Positions 4,387 through 11,315 of a stretch of 32,786 bases of DNA are shown here, piece by piece. The position numbers and the translations under genes were made by a program. The DNA lies in contig CAITNV010000021.1 of the NCBI GenBank assembly GCA_903893855.1, positions 1 to 32,786 on the forward strand, given 5' to 3'. This stretch comes from Candidatus Tayloriibacteriota bacterium. Its GTDB lineage: Bacteria > Patescibacteriota > Minisyncoccia > Phycocordibacterales > PALSA-1337. The notes under the pieces were generated by a model. The model had not been told where the DNA came from, searched no databases, and saw nothing but the letters and a program-made list of their open reading frames with translations. Positions within the stretch are counted from its first letter, which is position 1. Every line of letters starts with the position of its first letter.

Positions 4387-5874
4387 TTACTGATTGGGCA
4401 CCTCTTTCCAAGATATGGTGGAATATTGATTAGTAGCTGAAGGAAATGACGGTGGCGGGCCGTACAAAAGATTGCCATCATAAGTAATATTTCGTATTTG
4501 ATAGCCAGTGCCATCGGTATACGCAAAACCATAGCGTAAATTGCTTGCTATCATACCCGCAAGACTAAGCTTGCTACGAATATAATAATTCCTATATGAA
4601 GAAGTAGTTGGATAATTAGGGTCCGTCGGAGTTGAGCAATTAGAACTATAATAATATCTCCCTGCGCGACCATTCTGAGCCACAAGCGCTGCATCAATCG
4701 TAAGATTATCTGCACTCACAAAACCCACATTGATATTATTCTGAGCAATGAGACCGAGACTATCCTGACCGTTAAAATTCGTATAGGTAATATTATTATT
4801 AATCGTAATGTTCTTATACGTGCTTGGATTAGCGGGAAATGCTCCAGCAGCAATCGTTAGCCGTGCTCCATTAATAGCTCCGTCAATCCAAAGATTATCC
4901 TGCACGAAGATCACACCACTCGATGGAAATGGCACCGCCGAGCGAAATATCGTCTTATTAACTACACTCCACGATCCCCAACCGGTTTGTCCCGACAAAC
5001 CAACTGCATCATTTGAACAAGTGCCACTAAGTGACTGTAGTGATGTCACTTTATAAATATCATACGTGTCATTTGTATGTAGAAGTATGTAATACCCCAA
5101 CACTCCCGATGATGTATAACTACTTCCGCCATTTTGAGCAATCGTCAAAAGCTGAGACAAATCAGTCGTAATATTATTAAAATCGATCACTGGCACGGGG
5201 AACTGCCTTCCGCTTAAGAAAATATTAGCATCTGCTGGTGGTGTGGTGGGTGGCGTCGGATCCCCTGTCGTGTACACGCCGTAACGTTGCACGCCATCAT
5301 TCAAATCCGGATCAATATACTGCGACAAAGCACTCGCAACGATATTATGTGCAATACCATCAAAATGAATCCCGTAGTTCGACTGAATCGGACCAAAAAT
5401 CGTGGTTCCTGAACCGAAATAAATATTGTCATTACTTACCACGGCATACTGCGCGAAAGACGGCACTGCAAATGTCGCTTGTATTGTGCGCGAGAGCGAT
5501 GTACTCGCCATAGTTCCTTTTGAACGCACGGTTACGATAGATGTTCCCGTCGCAGGTGGTGTAATAGTCAAAGCGAATTGCCCGAGAACATTGCCGTCTT
5601 TATCCTGAAAAGGGTGAATATATGGTCCGGGTGAAGTCGACGAAGCATTACCATCATAATAATCTGAAGGAAGATTCGCCAAATGCCAGCGATAATAATC
5701 AATGCCCGATTCCGCAATCTCATAAGCCTGCTGACTATTAACCATTTGGACTGTGCGCTTCAAAAGTGTCGCTCCCCAATTTACCAAAGACATCGTGATG
5801 ACAAGAGCGATCACCGAGAAGACTAAAACATTCACGAGTATGAGACCTTTTTTTGTAGAGCAAAGTTTTCTCAT
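4387..5874 (-). CDS. PilX/GspK-like large minor pilin
   Basis: 495 aa. The N-terminus has a short basic leader, then KKG followed by LILVNVLVFSVIAL, a pilin-like hydrophobic helix (about residues 10-35). The position expected to carry Glu5 of mature pilins is Asn. The AYEIAESGIDYYRWHL stretch (about 45-60) is typical of PilX/GspK-type N-terminal regions. The long C-terminal part is Ser/Thr/Asn/Gly-rich with repeated short hydrophobic strands (for example IFVQDNLWIDGAI, ITINNNITY), suggesting an extracellular beta-helix or beta-sandwich. The start overlaps the stop of the upstream pilin by 4 nt (ATGA), so translation is probably coupled. As last gene of the pilus operon it could be the tip subunit by analogy with GspK; this is inference. 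Confidence 0.8.
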   Translation of the reverse strand: MRKLCSTKKGLILVNVLVFSVIALVITMSLVNWGATLLKRTVQMVNSQQAYEIAESGIDYYRWHLANLPSDYYDGNASSTSPGPYIHPFQDKDGNVLGQFALTITPPATGTSIVTVRSKGTMASTSLSRTIQATFAVPSFAQYAVVSNDNIYFGSGTTIFGPIQSNYGIHFDGIAHNIVASALSQYIDPDLNDGVQRYGVYTTGDPTPPTTPPADANIFLSGRQFPVPVIDFNNITTDLSQLLTIAQNGGSSYTSSGVLGYYILLHTNDTYDIYKVTSLQSLSGTCSNDAVGLSGQTGWGSWSVVNKTIFRSAVPFPSSGVIFVQDNLWIDGAINGARLTIAAGAFPANPSTYKNITINNNITYTNFNGQDSLGLIAQNNINVGFVSADNLTIDAALVAQNGRAGRYYYSSNCSTPTDPNYPTTSSYRNYYIRSKLSLAGMIASNLRYGFAYTDGTGYQIRNITYDGNLLYGPPPSFPSATNQYSTISWKEVPNQ

Positions 5875-6515
5875 AAATTATTTTTTAAATTACGCAGACT
5901 GACTTGGCTAGTATAGGTGACTGGTGCAACAGGTAAATTAGGATTCGTATTTAGCACAAGTGTGATGCGGACAAGGCGGACATTTGAAGCAGTGACCGGC
6001 TGTGCTAATGGCGAACTTGTACCGGTATAGTTGGAATCGAAATAGTCGAAGACATTAACATTTCGAGCATTTCGCACATTTGAAGCGAGGGTGAAGACTG
6101 TACCCGTAGCATTAGGGTATGACAATGGAATGCCAGTTGGAGCAACGACACTTTTAAACAATGTCGTTCCCACTAGCGTATACGTAATCTTTTCAGACAC
6201 CCCGTCGCCATTGTTATCACTAAAGAATGTAAACGTACTTGTACCTGTCGTCACGATTGGGTACGAACCATCACTACCGGGGGTCGCCGATCGCAATTCT
6301 TTAACCATAGTATTTAAAATATTCTGTGCATCCCCTGCCGAGAGAAGCGAGCTACTCTGCACTGAATTGAGATAGTAAATATCGCGCTCGAATCTCGTGA
6401 GCGCAATTAAAATAATTGCACCGATCGCAACAACAACTAATAATTCAACTAAAGTAAACCCTCGGCGATTCGCGAGTATCTTTTGTTTTTTAAAATTGAA
6501 AAAAGTTTGGCGCAT
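5871..6515 (-). CDS. Type IV minor pilin, PilW/PulJ-like
   Basis: 214 aa. It carries a textbook class III prepilin signal: a basic leader (KKQKILANRR), then G cleaved before FTLVELLVVVAIGAIILIAL, with Glu at +5 and a hydrophobic alpha1 helix (about residues 18-42). The rest is a polar domain with the layout of PilW/PulJ minor pilins (an early Ser-rich turn, then SDNNGDGVSEKITYTL, then a C-terminal SLRNL ending). The role is incorporation into a type IV pilus or pseudopilus after cleavage by a PilD-type peptidase that is not in the window. It overlaps the next gene by 4 nt and starts 22 nt after the large pilin gene upstream. No Shine-Dalgarno motif is seen. Confidence 0.85.
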   Translation of the reverse strand: MRQTFFNFKKQKILANRRGFTLVELLVVVAIGAIILIALTRFERDIYYLNSVQSSSLLSAGDAQNILNTMVKELRSATPGSDGSYPIVTTGTSTFTFFSDNNGDGVSEKITYTLVGTTLFKSVVAPTGIPLSYPNATGTVFTLASNVRNARNVNVFDYFDSNYTGTSSPLAQPVTASNVRLVRITLVLNTNPNLPVAPVTYTSQVSLRNLKNNL

Positions 6516-6537: not shown

Positions 6538-8322
6538 TTATGGACTAACTACAACAGTCTGCGATGACCACGGAGAATTAATGGTAACTGGTACGGAATT
6601 GGTCGTATACCCTGAAGCACTTGTGGTAAGTGTATATGTACCGGGCGTAAGTCCTTGGAATAATACCTGTCCAGGAGGAGTACATGCTGTGCTAAATGTA
6701 AAAGCGACATCTGAAAGATCGGGAGTATTTGTCGCCGAAGCTGTTGTTAATAAAGCTTGATAGCGAAGGTATCGATCGCCATTGTGCATTGAACCTATCG
6801 AAGAATTGGCGCTCGTATAATATGTCGCACCGGTGCCGTCAGGTCCAACAAAGTTCCAACTCGATGGAGTACTTGAAGGACTCGTGGCGAGCTGCAATTT
6901 CACACTCGTTGTCCCCGAAGCGAGAGGTTGACTCCCCGGTTGCCAGACTAAATTTACAAAGTTACTTGTCGTGCCCGCATCAAACGTAGATGACTGAAGT
7001 AAACCGCTCGAAGGATATAGTCCGGTGAATGGCAATAAATTAACATCCCCCACCGGAGTATTCTTACTTATATGTCCATCATCGCTAAAATATTCATTCA
7101 TCGTATACGCATCGTGTCCTGCCCCACCCGACCAATCAGTCTGATCGATGAAGCCTTGTCCGGTAGTAAGCGTTGAAGAGAAGCCGGACTTCGCTAATGT
7201 AACGGTCGCTCCAGTTAATGGTAAATTCGTCGAGCTATCTTCGACTGTGACGAGCAAACTATCGGGATTCTTCGGAGCCACAACAAGAAGAACTTGCTGA
7301 GCACTCGCTGGGTTTAATTGAACTGGATTTAAAATATTTAATCCTGCAAGATCGTAGCTCGCGCTGTTTAGGCCGAAACTATATGCATCCCATTCCATAT
7401 TATTGAGTGTCATTTTCCCTGTACCGCCAGTTGTCGTCGTAGCTGAATATTTTGGAACATTCGGACCGATAGTTTTCGATCCCGCAAGTGTGAAGCCGAC
7501 ATTCGGCACCAAGGTACAACCATTCGTAACGCTTGAAACCGATAGACTGCTCAATTGATCAATCGAGAAAGAAGCTGAAGTTACTTTCTGTGAAAGAACG
7601 GTAGCGTCTGGCTTAGTAGGAGTAGGGTTCCCTGACGCTCCAGATGGATATGTTTTATCAGTAGAATAACCGGCTTTGGTCACGACAATATGATATGAAG
7701 AGCTCGACGGCGGTACACCAACAATCTGCAATAAACCATCATTGTTGGTTGTATCTACCACCGTGATCGATGGCGTAGTTGAAGTATTCGTAACCGTAAC
7801 TGTAGCACCGACGATCGGAATGCCATTTGCATTAAAAGCTTTAATCGACAAAGCACCATCAACCGTGTCGACAATAAGATTTTTTGGGGCGACCTGACCT
7901 GTGAGTGTTAGTGTCTTAAAATTTTTACAACTATCACATGAGACAGTCACCGCAACTAATTTCTCTGAAGGAGAAGTGCTTGCAGTCGTACTTGCTGAGA
8001 CAGAACCAAGCGATATTGCAGTATTTCTCACAATAGTCGTAACGGTAAATGGAATATTGCCTCGAGTGATGGTCTGAACTTCAGGAATAACTCCAGTCGG
8101 AATTCCTGAAGGGACGCCAACATTGCTATATGACATATTACGAACAATTTCGAATTGTTCATTCGCGAGCTCAACTGCGAGGGTCTGATCTTGATTCGCC
8201 GCAATAACCGCGAAGATAGAAACGTACACTTGATACACAGCCAAAGCAAGTACAAGAAACAAAGCCCCGCCGATTACGGCTTCAATCAGTGTAAAACCTT
8301 GTGCGCGCGACTTTTGATACAT
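6538..8322 (-). CDS. Giant prepilin-like adhesin with Cna-B/carboxypeptidase-regulatory-like domains
   Basis: 594 aa, several times longer than an ordinary pilin. MYQKSRAQG then FTLIEAVIGGALFLVLALAVY is a clear class III prepilin signal with Glu5. After the helix come a small polar domain with a C-D-S-C pair (about 128-132) and a beta-rich domain starting SIKAFNANGIPIVGATVTVTNT (about 158-235), a CarboxypepD_reg/Cna-B-type strand pattern that includes AGYSTD. A second copy appears to begin at about 356 (LVTVEDSSTNLPLTGATVTL) and to finish at about 555-594 (GLTPGTYTLTTSASGYTT), with about 150 residues of another beta-rich module inserted between. It is the third gene of the operon, 3 nt after pilC. 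Likely a surface-exposed adhesive minor pilin; binding target unknown. Confidence 0.82.
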   Translation of the reverse strand: MYQKSRAQGFTLIEAVIGGALFLVLALAVYQVYVSIFAVIAANQDQTLAVELANEQFEIVRNMSYSNVGVPSGIPTGVIPEVQTITRGNIPFTVTTIVRNTAISLGSVSASTTASTSPSEKLVAVTVSCDSCKNFKTLTLTGQVAPKNLIVDTVDGALSIKAFNANGIPIVGATVTVTNTSTTPSITVVDTTNNDGLLQIVGVPPSSSSYHIVVTKAGYSTDKTYPSGASGNPTPTKPDATVLSQKVTSASFSIDQLSSLSVSSVTNGCTLVPNVGFTLAGSKTIGPNVPKYSATTTTGGTGKMTLNNMEWDAYSFGLNSASYDLAGLNILNPVQLNPASAQQVLLVVAPKNPDSLLVTVEDSSTNLPLTGATVTLAKSGFSSTLTTGQGFIDQTDWSGGAGHDAYTMNEYFSDDGHISKNTPVGDVNLLPFTGLYPSSGLLQSSTFDAGTTSNFVNLVWQPGSQPLASGTTSVKLQLATSPSSTPSSWNFVGPDGTGATYYTSANSSIGSMHNGDRYLRYQALLTTASATNTPDLSDVAFTFSTACTPPGQVLFQGLTPGTYTLTTSASGYTTNSVPVTINSPWSSQTVVVSP

Positions 8323-8325
8323 AAT

Positions 8326-9546
8326 TTAAGAAATTACATTCACGAGTGAATATATCGGCGAAATAACTGCAATTGCAAAGAATCCTACGAAGCCTCCGAT
8401 CACCACCATAATTACCGGCTCGAGAATCGACGACATGTCTTTGGTCTGTTGTTCAATATCATCTTCATAATAGACCGCGACACCAAGGAGCATTTCCCCC
8501 ATTTTACCTGTCTCTTCGCCCACACTAATCATCTCGGTGATAAATGTAGGATACAGCTTCTCATGTTCAGAAAAAACTTTAGAAAGTGGTTGGCCCTTCT
8601 TTATCGATTCACCTGCTTTCGAAAGAATCTTTTTATAATGAACGTTCTGGAGCACTTCTTCCGTGATCTTTACTGCATCAACGACATCTACTCCAGAACT
8701 TAACAGTGAAGAAAGTGTACGCGCAGTACGAGCGACATTTACTTCCACAACAATACTTCCGATTACCGGTAATTTAATTAAACAATAATGCAAAACGCTT
8801 TTGCCTTTTGGTAAACGACTTACGATGTACAAGACCGCCAAGAGCACGACAACAATAAAACCAATAAGCACCCCATGATCTCGCAAAAGATTACTCAAGT
8901 TCACAATGAGCAACGTCGAAGCCGGCAATTTTACATTGAGTCCGGTAAATGTCGTAAGCAGAGTCGGCACGATGTACGTGAGCAAAATGACCGCAATGAT
9001 AATCATTGCAACCACTACCACTGCGGGATACATCAGTGCCCCACGAATTCTTCGGACGAGTACATTCGCTCGGTCAAGCTGGAGTGCCACGATCTTCAAT
9101 GATTCAGCGAGATTACCCGACTGCTCTCCAGCCTTCACCATGGAGATGAAAAGCGATGAGAAAACCTTTGGGAATTTCTGCATCGACTCTGCGAGGGTTT
9201 TACCTTTACTAATGTCGGTATTGAGCGAATTAATCACTTTTTTCATAGACTGCTTCTTGGTCTGTCGCTCAATAACGCTCAAAGCTCGAGAAGGAGCGAG
9301 CCCCGCCTGAATCATAGAACCAAGATTCCTTGCGAAATGAATCTTCTCTTGCATATTAATTCCACCAAGACCAACCGAGAACATCCGCTGGAACAAAGAC
9401 TTATCATTAAGACTTTTAAACGACACCACTTCAGATCCAGACTGACGAATAAGTCGATATAACTCGTATCGATCCGCAGCTTCAAGTGTCGCTTCGTATA
9501 TTTCTCCGGTATCCTTTCTTTTTGCTTTATATTGGTAGTGAATCAT
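8326..9546 (-). CDS. pilC: Type IV pilus inner-membrane platform protein PilC/GspF
   Basis: 406 aa, the usual size. Two tandem T2SSF domains are visible: one around ARNLGSMIQAGLAPSRAL, one around ARTLSSLLSSGVDVVDAVKI, each ending in a family-type VKAGEQSGNL / VGEETGKMGEML motif. Hydrophobic segments at about 170-195, 220-240 and 375-400 fit the three-helix topology. It anchors the assembly ATPase to the membrane and passes pilins into the fibre. The N-terminal YQYKAKRKDTGEIYEATLEA is the typical short cytoplasmic strand region. It lies 3 nt after pilB and 3 nt before the giant pilin gene. Confidence 0.94.
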   Translation of the reverse strand: MIHYQYKAKRKDTGEIYEATLEAADRYELYRLIRQSGSEVVSFKSLNDKSLFQRMFSVGLGGINMQEKIHFARNLGSMIQAGLAPSRALSVIERQTKKQSMKKVINSLNTDISKGKTLAESMQKFPKVFSSLFISMVKAGEQSGNLAESLKIVALQLDRANVLVRRIRGALMYPAVVVVAMIIIAVILLTYIVPTLLTTFTGLNVKLPASTLLIVNLSNLLRDHGVLIGFIVVVLLAVLYIVSRLPKGKSVLHYCLIKLPVIGSIVVEVNVARTARTLSSLLSSGVDVVDAVKITEEVLQNVHYKKILSKAGESIKKGQPLSKVFSEHEKLYPTFITEMISVGEETGKMGEMLLGVAVYYEDDIEQQTKDMSSILEPVIMVVIGGFVGFFAIAVISPIYSLVNVIS

Positions 9547-9549
9547 ATA

Positions 9550-11295
9550 TTATTCTGAGACTACTCGAAGCACTTCTTCGATACTGGTTAAACCTTGCAC
9601 ACATTTAAAAACTCCATCCTCAAGCATCGTGAGCATGCCTTCTTTTCGAGCTTGGGCTTCGATGTCTGACGAAGATGAACCTTTAATTACCAGACTTCGT
9701 ATGGTCGGCGTCATACGAAGCACTTCGTGTATGCCGACGCGACTCTTATATCCATTTTCATCTGAGCCAGCAACAACTGCTCGAAAAAGCGGAATCGTTT
9801 CCCAGTTAGCTTCAGCACCGACAACCTTTTCACTCTTCAGAGCCGCAAGCACTCGATCAAGATCGACATGTACTTTAAGCACATTAATCTCATCCTTTGT
9901 AAGGAAATATTTTTCTTTCGAATCTGAGAGTTTTCGAACGAGACGCTGACCAATCACGATATTAATCGTCGATACCAAGAGGAATGGCTCGACCTTCATA
10001 TCAATGAGGCGTGGCATAGCTCCAGCGGCGCTATTGGTGTGAAGTGTTGAGAGTACGAGGTGTCCCGTGAGCGCAGCATTGACCGCGAGTGCAGCAGTCT
10101 CATTGTCGCGGATCTCACCAACCATAATAATATCTGGGTCTTGTCGAACAAGCGTTCGCAATCCTGTAGAGAATGTAAAACCAATCTCAGGCTTGACCTG
10201 CGTTTGATTCACCCGTTTCATCTGATATTCCACTGGATCCTCGATCGTAGAAATATTTACATTTGGTGTATTTAAAATATCGAGTACGGTATAGAGCGTA
10301 GTCGTCTTTCCAGAACCAGTCGGTCCGGTTGTGAGTATCATGCCCACAGTCTGAGTGATAGCGTGATGTACCGCCTCAAGCGCTTCCCCATGAAAGCCAG
10401 AATACTCAAGTGTGAATCCAGACACATTCTCTCGAAGAAGACGCATAACAGTCTTCTCTCCATAATATGTTGGTAGGATAGATACACGGAATGATACGCG
10501 TTCATCATTCATATCAATCTGGAAACGACCATCTTGCGGAAGGCGCTTCTCATCGAGCCGCAATGAAGAGAGCACCTTAATGCGCGCAGTGATCGGTGGC
10601 TCTGCATTCTTAGGCAAGACCATAGCATCATGAAGAATTCCATCAATTCGATATCGTACGAGAGTCTGATCCTCCATAGGCTCAATGTGTATATCCGATG
10701 CGTCCTGAAGAATAGCGTGTTTAAGAAGTGTGTCGACAATACGAATAACCGGCAAATCCTCTGCCATCTTTTTGATACTCTCGGTACTACCATCAATTGT
10801 CTCTGACACCGTCTTCAGAGCTGAAGACTCTTTCATAATAATATCACCGAATTCTGCTTTGAGGCTTTTTTGATACTGGACAATTACACTCTTAATAGAT
10901 TCAGCATCAGTTAGACGTGGAGCGATCTTCAATCGAACTTTCTTTTTTATAAAATCTATTGCCGAGAGATCATCGACGTTCAACATCGCAACCTCGAGCG
11001 TATCGTCACTCTTTTTAAATGCCACAATATTATGTGTTCGTGCAATAGGCTCTGGAATAAGCGAGAGAATATCGAAAGGAATCTTCTGTGATTTGAGCTC
11101 AACGAAAGGAATACCGAGCACATATGCTTGTATGCGACGGAGATTATCAGGAGATATCTTTCCATCAGTGACAAGTACGTCACCGATACTTTTACCCTGC
11201 TGATTTGCTGTGACTTCGGCAGATTGAAGGTCGGCCTGTGTTACGAGCCCTGAGTCAAGGATAAATTTTTTTAATTGAGAATCGTCGATGAGCAT
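9550..11295 (-). CDS. pilB: Type IV pilus assembly ATPase PilB/GspE, lacking the Cys4 zinc motif
   Basis: 581 aa from the ATG at 11293-11295. The track starts 4 codons earlier at a TTG, which I reject because the promoter lies there. Domains: N-terminal MshEN-like region (about 1-140), then the motor domain with Walker A GPTGSGKTTT (about 325), Asp box STIEDPVEY, Walker B DPDIIMVGEIRD and His box TGHLVLSTLHT. It powers pilin polymerisation from the cytoplasm. Most PilB/GspE proteins carry two CxxC pairs that bind zinc; here the equivalents read LSDSKEK and AGSDENG, with no Cys, although the following GYKSRVGIHEVL is conserved. It is the first gene of the five-gene pilus operon. Confidence 0.95.
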   Translation of the reverse strand: MLIDDSQLKKFILDSGLVTQADLQSAEVTANQQGKSIGDVLVTDGKISPDNLRRIQAYVLGIPFVELKSQKIPFDILSLIPEPIARTHNIVAFKKSDDTLEVAMLNVDDLSAIDFIKKKVRLKIAPRLTDAESIKSVIVQYQKSLKAEFGDIIMKESSALKTVSETIDGSTESIKKMAEDLPVIRIVDTLLKHAILQDASDIHIEPMEDQTLVRYRIDGILHDAMVLPKNAEPPITARIKVLSSLRLDEKRLPQDGRFQIDMNDERVSFRVSILPTYYGEKTVMRLLRENVSGFTLEYSGFHGEALEAVHHAITQTVGMILTTGPTGSGKTTTLYTVLDILNTPNVNISTIEDPVEYQMKRVNQTQVKPEIGFTFSTGLRTLVRQDPDIIMVGEIRDNETAALAVNAALTGHLVLSTLHTNSAAGAMPRLIDMKVEPFLLVSTINIVIGQRLVRKLSDSKEKYFLTKDEINVLKVHVDLDRVLAALKSEKVVGAEANWETIPLFRAVVAGSDENGYKSRVGIHEVLRMTPTIRSLVIKGSSSSDIEAQARKEGMLTMLEDGVFKCVQGLTSIEEVLRVVSE

Positions 11296-11306
11296 AATTA
11301 GCCACA

Positions 11307-11315
11307 ATTATACCA
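11307..11315 (-). promoter_or_regulatory. Pilus operon promoter, extended -10
   Basis: Minus-strand TGG-TATAAT lies 11 nt before the chosen pilB ATG. The predicted transcript has a 5' UTR of about 4-5 nt, so it is nearly leaderless. The TTG start used by the ORF track would begin immediately next to the -10 box, upstream of any plausible transcript start. Confidence 0.65.

Follow-up and report, generated by a model that had tools for sequence, protein, structure and literature searches.

The question raised by this locus is how a 594-residue prepilin, encoded among pilus assembly genes, is put together and what it might display on the filament. In the window, by which we mean the whole 32,786-nucleotide stretch of DNA that was analysed, the gene for this modular minor prepilin, P0001, lies on the minus strand at positions 6538–8322, as do all the features of the window located below on the minus strand. 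It was defined from the open reading frame and its translation, with an ATG at 8322 and a stop codon at 6538–6540, and is present as a single copy in the source genome, which comprises 935,889 bases in 62 contigs. The first-pass annotation had read a prepilin signal on the protein, and profile searches bear this out: P0001 scores 23.5 bits against the N_methyl family (PF07963), for which the cut-off is 21.2, and 17.7 bits in a single-protein scan. Residues 1–9 (8296–8322) make up a class III (prepilin) leader, MYQKSRAQG/FTLIE, with predicted cleavage after Gly9, and the type IV pilin signature is present in the form of Gly at position −1, Glu5 and a hydrophobic N-terminal helix. The prepilin had been called giant; its 594 residues are typical of the family and not peculiar to one genome.

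Pilus assembly genes adjoin the P0001 gene, with pilB and pilC directly upstream and two pilin-like genes downstream. The extension ATPase PilB is encoded at 9550–11307 (T2SSE, E 4e-116; MshEN) and the platform protein PilC at 8326–9546 (T2SSF, E 1e-53). Downstream come a second prepilin of 214 residues in a PilW/GspJ-like position (5871–6515; N_methyl, E 1.6e-8; conserved synteny) and a GspK/PilX-like, prepilin-like protein of 495 residues (4387–5874; conserved synteny), and these are followed by tpiA, pgk and recJ. The 495-residue protein may be a GspK-type subunit; its family match is weak (E 0.037), and its mature form has Asn rather than Glu at position 5, which fits such a subunit. Homologues of P0001 are also found next to pilBC in related genomes, as the earlier annotation had envisaged, and the order pilB, pilC, P0001, PilW-like, GspK-like is conserved in most of the relatives examined. 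Elsewhere in the source genome (contigs C15, C20, C21, C44 and C54) there are at least three PilB-type ATPases, a PilT-like ATPase of 394 residues (C20) and 14 N_methyl prepilin matches distributed over several clusters. The organism is therefore likely to build at least two different type IV filaments, and with at least three PilB-type ATPases in the genome, the filament that carries P0001 is not certain.

The mature protein begins with a pilin module (residues 10–148; 7879–8295), delineated from AlphaFold2 (AF2) secondary structure and the alignment of orthologues, in which a helix spanning residues 12–62 precedes β-strands between residues 82 and 144 and a C129-x-x-C132 motif. Three further domains follow, which we refer to as the stalk, with boundaries from hidden Markov models that are accurate to a few residues. 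Stalk domain 1 (CPD1, residues 153–256; 7555–7866) is CarboxypepD_reg-like and reaches 33.1 bits against PF13620 when scanned alone, the cut-off being 32.3. Stalk domain 2 (CPD2, residues 257–353; 7264–7554) is a diverged copy of the CPD1 fold (hhalign of domain 3 against CPD2, E 1.7e-4), too diverged to give a confident Pfam match inside the whole protein. The third domain, D3, is in two parts, an opening half, D3a (residues 354–393; 7144–7263), and a closing half, D3b (residues 546–594; 6541–6687), which score 18.9 and 25.9 bits alone against PF13620, both under the cut-off of 32.3. Scanned as a whole, P0001 matches PF13620 over three stretches with 53.7 bits and the SpaA prealbumin-like family PF17802 with 34.4 bits.

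The split unit had been described as a second Cna-B/CarboxypepD_reg-like domain. The fold class was well chosen, as the CarboxypepD_reg and SpaA prealbumin-like matches indicate, but Pfam Cna_B is not among the families matching P0001 with E ≤ 1, and the unit is the third of its kind, since the domains at 153–256 and 257–353 precede it. Nor do the three stalk domains have, in their first strands (strand A), any Lys for a Lys–Asn isopeptide bond that is conserved in 90% or more of the 61 orthologues. A search of PDB sequences with full-length P0001 gave no match. Structural comparison of the AlphaFold2 models with Foldseek related the row of domains to stalk pilins and CnaB stacks, among them GBS52 (3phs; TMt 0.45) and to the Bacillus anthracis TIE protein BaTIE (6fwv; E 3e-10), and D3 to the regulatory domains of carboxypeptidases N and D (2nsm, 1.6 Å over 45 columns; 1qmu).

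Between D3a and D3b lies a module, MOD, of about 150 residues (394–545; 6688–7143). Sequence comparison confirms that it is nested within the third stalk domain, as the first-pass annotation had proposed, and the boundaries given there were almost exact: a domain from about 356 to 555–594 is here placed at about 354–594, and an insert running from TDWSGGAG (residue 395) to LSDVAFTFS (around 543) at about 394–545. D3a matches positions 3–35 of PF13620 and D3b positions 38–71, so that segments adjacent in the profile are some 160 residues apart in the protein. Two orthologues, L036 (452 residues, genome G023) and L037 (456 residues, G031), sit at the same syntenic pil locus and align to residues 1–389 and 546–593 of P0001, the module being missing. 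In relatives with the base architecture from other families (L140, L147, L151, L173 and L174, for example), D3a and D3b are likewise contiguous. When the module columns are omitted, the spliced D3 aligns with CPD1 across the junction with an hhalign probability of 97.5% and an E value of 7e-12, and the residues that D3 has in excess of CPD1 fall exactly at that junction; the module itself has a probability below 1% of relation to any stalk domain. The full architecture recurs in 61 distinct orthologues, which rules out a misassembly or an oddity of a single genome.

Structure prediction from a five-sequence alignment went part of the way. AF2 produced confident strands in both halves of D3 (pLDDT up to 89 in D3a and 74–93 in D3b) but left the insert below 50, so that the case for a nested geometry is made by the sequence comparisons. 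Judged by the order of strands in the model, the insert occupies the C–D loop, which joins strands three and four of D3. The lack of a confident fold for the insert can be cited for a reading in which the C-terminal region is a series of consecutive, independent domains and the CarboxypepD_reg likeness of its two ends is coincidental. We regard that reading as extremely improbable, because it is contradicted by the continuity of the profile match, by natural module-less forms in which the D3 halves are joined, by their contiguity in other families and by the alignment of the spliced domain with CPD1.

MOD is found outside the stalk context as well. It divides into an N-terminal part, MODn (residues 394–433), and a self-sufficient core of about 112 residues, MODc (434–545). 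The core occurs at the C-terminus of exported-looking proteins of 270–290 residues and of another class of pilins of about 620 residues, and as tandem pairs in proteins of 1,700–2,300 residues (L098, L101, L102, L103 and L105); fibronectin type III (fn3) or phosphatase-type immunoglobulin repeats lie alongside in L098 and L101, the two that were scanned. Searches of Pfam, NCBIfam and PHROGs, and of PDB sequences with two profiles, gave no significant match to MOD; the best PDB matches, an agglutinin (E 0.8) and an endoglucanase (E 0.26), were judged to be due to chance. A von Willebrand factor A (vWA) domain was matched neither in P0001 nor in MOD. Among known carbohydrate-binding and discoidin families, none was significant, the closest being F5_F8_type_C at E 0.0066 (three of 53 members) and the CBM families at E above 0.03; these weak hints (E 0.007–0.07) would be compatible with a jelly-roll fold. 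MOD is an independent, widespread and unnamed domain, carried by 84 of the 380 Patescibacteria genomes sampled, and it merits a family model and a structure.

The composition of MOD bears on what it might bind. Across orthologues it is acidic, with a median pI of 4.3 and a median charge of −6, and 12.5% of its residues are aromatic, against 6–7% in the other parts of the ectodomain. One reading of P0001 places it, as a receptor, at the tip of a pilus for DNA uptake (competence), with MOD binding extracellular DNA in the manner of ComZ. This Thermus pilin, for which a tip position has been proposed, has an inserted β-domain, a β-solenoid, and binds DNA (PMC6561018), and the N-terminus of P0001 weakly matches the competence minor pilin ComGE in NCBIfam (E 0.012), along with GspJ (E 0.007). 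Such a receptor is nevertheless improbable here, and the acidity of MOD in most orthologues, unlike a DNA-binding surface, lowers its standing; moreover, no com gene was recognised beside the P0001 gene in the conserved locus. The composition suggests a head-like character for MOD.

The distribution of MOD among relatives was examined in a family sample and a phylum sample, each with one genome per species and mostly metagenome assemblies, so that the counts describe species and the frequencies refer to that sample. Within the taxonomic family, the protein is of the full form in most genomes and module-less in two, while four have a bare pilin of about 145 residues at the shared locus. In the bare pilins (L044, L045, L046 and L047; about 136–153 residues), which sit at the pilB–pilC locus, the whole ectodomain is gone. 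In a tree of the neighbouring pilC, which makes no use of the P0001 gene, full forms surround the module-less pair and bare pilins arise twice; these positions indicate that both the module-less forms and the bare pilins are losses, and that the whole stalk has, on this tree, been lost at least twice at conserved pil loci. Since MOD and the stalk are lost within loci that are otherwise conserved, MOD is not essential to the pilus.

At the level of the phylum, 85 of 380 genomes have members of the protein family that the stalk profile recognises. In a tree of 104 scaffold sequences, obtained by a quick search and midpoint-rooted, with a support of only 77 for the extended group, the guest-free forms occupy deep branches, three changes are needed to explain the D3 module, and module-less L036/L037 and a second such pair, L138/L139, fall inside the module-bearing group. 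The approximately unbiased (AU) test rejects a single clade of module-bearing proteins that leaves out L036/L037 and L138/L139 (p 3.7e-5), which requires at least two losses of the module, or a regain. The possibility that module-less forms are ancestral within the family is ruled out by this test together with the nesting of those forms among full forms in the pilC tree.

The D3 loop is not the only place at which the stalk accepts a guest. In L159–L166, relatives from the same order and class, some 130–145 residues that constitute a distant homologue of MOD interrupt domain 2 just beyond its first strand (hhalign 92.5%, E 5e-7, 128 columns). The same A–B loop of CPD2, around residue 269, holds about 375–395 residues in L168 and L169, where propeller-like repeats are apparent on direct viewing of the sequence; in L168, Pfam returns only a sub-threshold β-propeller repeat. 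In L170 (G233:C1:466500-474500, minus strand, 834 residues), the guest in this loop is an entire Ice_binding domain (PF11999, E 4e-63, profile positions 1–208 of 208), so that this protein carries two nested guests, Ice_binding in domain 2 and MOD in domain 3. With guests in the loops of both domains, the stalk is an insertion-tolerant scaffold with two guest sites, and comparison of the relatives demonstrates that guests are lost and exchanged at these sites while the host domain remains.

Two cysteines lie close to the guest sites. Cys269 in CPD2 (7516–7518) and Cys547, at the downstream edge of the insert (6682–6684), are candidate disulfide partners on the grounds of their co-occurrence in orthologues: all 61 full forms have the two residues, as do both module-less forms L036 and L037, they are also kept in L138/L139, and neither has an equivalent in L035, which is without D3. 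The pair is absent from most guest-free relatives. A requirement for the cysteines in holding the module is ruled out, as the module-less forms retain them, and for the same reason we consider the pair to be a lineage marker. Were the disulfide to form, it would place the two guest sites side by side. L035 itself (L035:3-1283), from Berkelbacteria, has domains 1 and 2, but its C-terminal domain, where domain 3 would otherwise be, appears to be a different one, IPT/TIG-like on visual inspection.

A lock of this kind between CPD2 and D3 could also belong to a structural part. On such an account, the stalk and MOD would join the PilW- and GspK-like subunits in capping, spacing or stabilising the pilus tip or the priming complex, and MOD would have no external ligand; the trio of genes to which the MOD-bearing protein belongs does resemble the GspI/J/K or PilV/W/X priming complex. 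Yet MOD and the stalk have been lost repeatedly while the trio persists, and unrelated guests replace one another at a single loop, behaviour that fits a variable head better than a structural part that is fixed. A purely structural role thus seems to us unlikely, if somewhat less so than that of a DNA receptor.

We consider it probable that P0001 is a modular minor type IV pilin in which the stalk is a mounting scaffold and the nested module a ligand-binding head. The protein would be processed by prepilin peptidase and incorporated as a minor subunit by the PilB/PilC machine, with the short pilin part anchoring it in the filament and the three transthyretin/CarboxypepD_reg-like β-sandwiches forming a stiff stalk that projects from it. 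Display would most likely be at the pilus tip, together with the PilW- and GspK-like neighbours. The acidic, aromatic-rich MOD in the C–D loop of the third domain would be the head, its ligand perhaps a glycan or a protein, and its use would presumably be in attachment to other cells or surfaces. Held by two connections, the head would be fixed at the side or the end of a β-sandwich without free-swinging linkers, and because a guest is inserted by both ends, it can go without destroying the host domain. While the comparisons of orthologous sequences establish the nested architecture, the independence of the guest, its loss and exchange, and the setting in a pil locus, an adhesin role is plausible by analogy with Streptococcus sanguinis PilB and TM7x PilX2.

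The S. sanguinis proteins PilB, which has a vWA domain, and PilC, which has a lectin domain, are modular pilins, the former an adhesin (PMC8179133, PMC9934059). Like P0001, they combine a class III leader and a short pilin part with a large extra domain or domains for display on the filament, which in P0001 are three CarboxypepD_reg-like domains and MOD. In S. sanguinis the extra part is grafted at the C-terminus, whereas in P0001 the module lies inside another domain and the insert has no database family. Pilins with PF13620 are among the 15 commonest modular architectures catalogued in 2021, several of which have representatives in candidate phyla (PMC8179133, PMC9934059). Stalk domains 1 and 3 of P0001 match PF13620/PF17802, domain 3 being split by about 150 residues. 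In TM7x, PilX1 (jelly-roll) and PilX2 (RCC1 propeller) are minor pilins, and deletion of PilX2 impairs host binding (PMC12206443). These, too, are patescibacterial minor pilins with β-domains; to judge from their descriptions, on which our comparison is based, the domains are C-terminal and not nested.

Guest domains within a stalk have precedents in other pili. In RrgA, GBS104 and Mfa5, two chain segments build up an Ig-like stalk domain that has an adhesive domain inserted in it (PMC7893114, PMC7835359), an arrangement that P0001, by sequence comparison, shares. Those proteins have vWA guests in CnaA- or IgG-like hosts and belong to sortase-assembled or type V pili with isopeptide bonds; P0001 is a type IV pilin with a transthyretin (TTR)/CarboxypepD_reg host, a guest that is not vWA, a possible disulfide and no conserved Lys in strand A. 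Thermus ComZ and GspK of the type II secretion system, minor pilins for which a tip location has been proposed, likewise have an extra domain within a fold (PMC6561018, PMC8179133); in their case it interrupts the pilin sheet itself, whereas that of P0001 is in the stalk beyond the pilin. Domain insertion as such is common, with a reported share of about 20% among multidomain proteins (PMC13114784), which limits the surprise. In the literature covered, which included few subscription papers, there is no description of nested modules in Patescibacteria pilin stalks. What is new relative to known systems is the TTR-like stalk in a type IV modular pilin, the undescribed nested module and the second, promiscuous guest site.

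Host recognition by Patescibacteria is largely unexplained (PMC12206443), and in methanogen-attached Paceibacteria pilBCDMT is present together with a clustering of genes whose products have pilin signal peptides (PMC9763046). A conserved stalk linked to pil genes, with a head that close relatives have exchanged or lost, offers concrete candidates for determinants of host or surface recognition, for which the natural module-minus and stalk-minus orthologues are ready controls. More tentatively, and with the balance of our judgement somewhat against it, Patescibacteria might share an ancient pilus-stalk platform, a pilin with three TTR-like domains, on which swaps of the guest retune the partner cell or surface recognised by the pilus of an episymbiont. 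Its two loops, perhaps drawn together by a disulfide, would have taken up nested guests repeatedly: MOD, its distant homologue, β-propellers and an ice-binding-type domain.

Two minor observations concern insertion at other points in these proteins. In the second class of pilins that contains MOD (L078:5851-7749 and L084:4318-6252), MODn is found at about residues 165–205 and the core at the C-terminus, with an LVIVD β-propeller between them; the L078 copy adjoins pilBC. With MOD in two pieces around the propeller, it may itself be a host of insertion. In L168 (G245; 946 residues), the pilin module is apparently interrupted by about 155 residues, the pilin profile matching over positions 1–104 and then 104–140, and this would represent a possible third insertion site.
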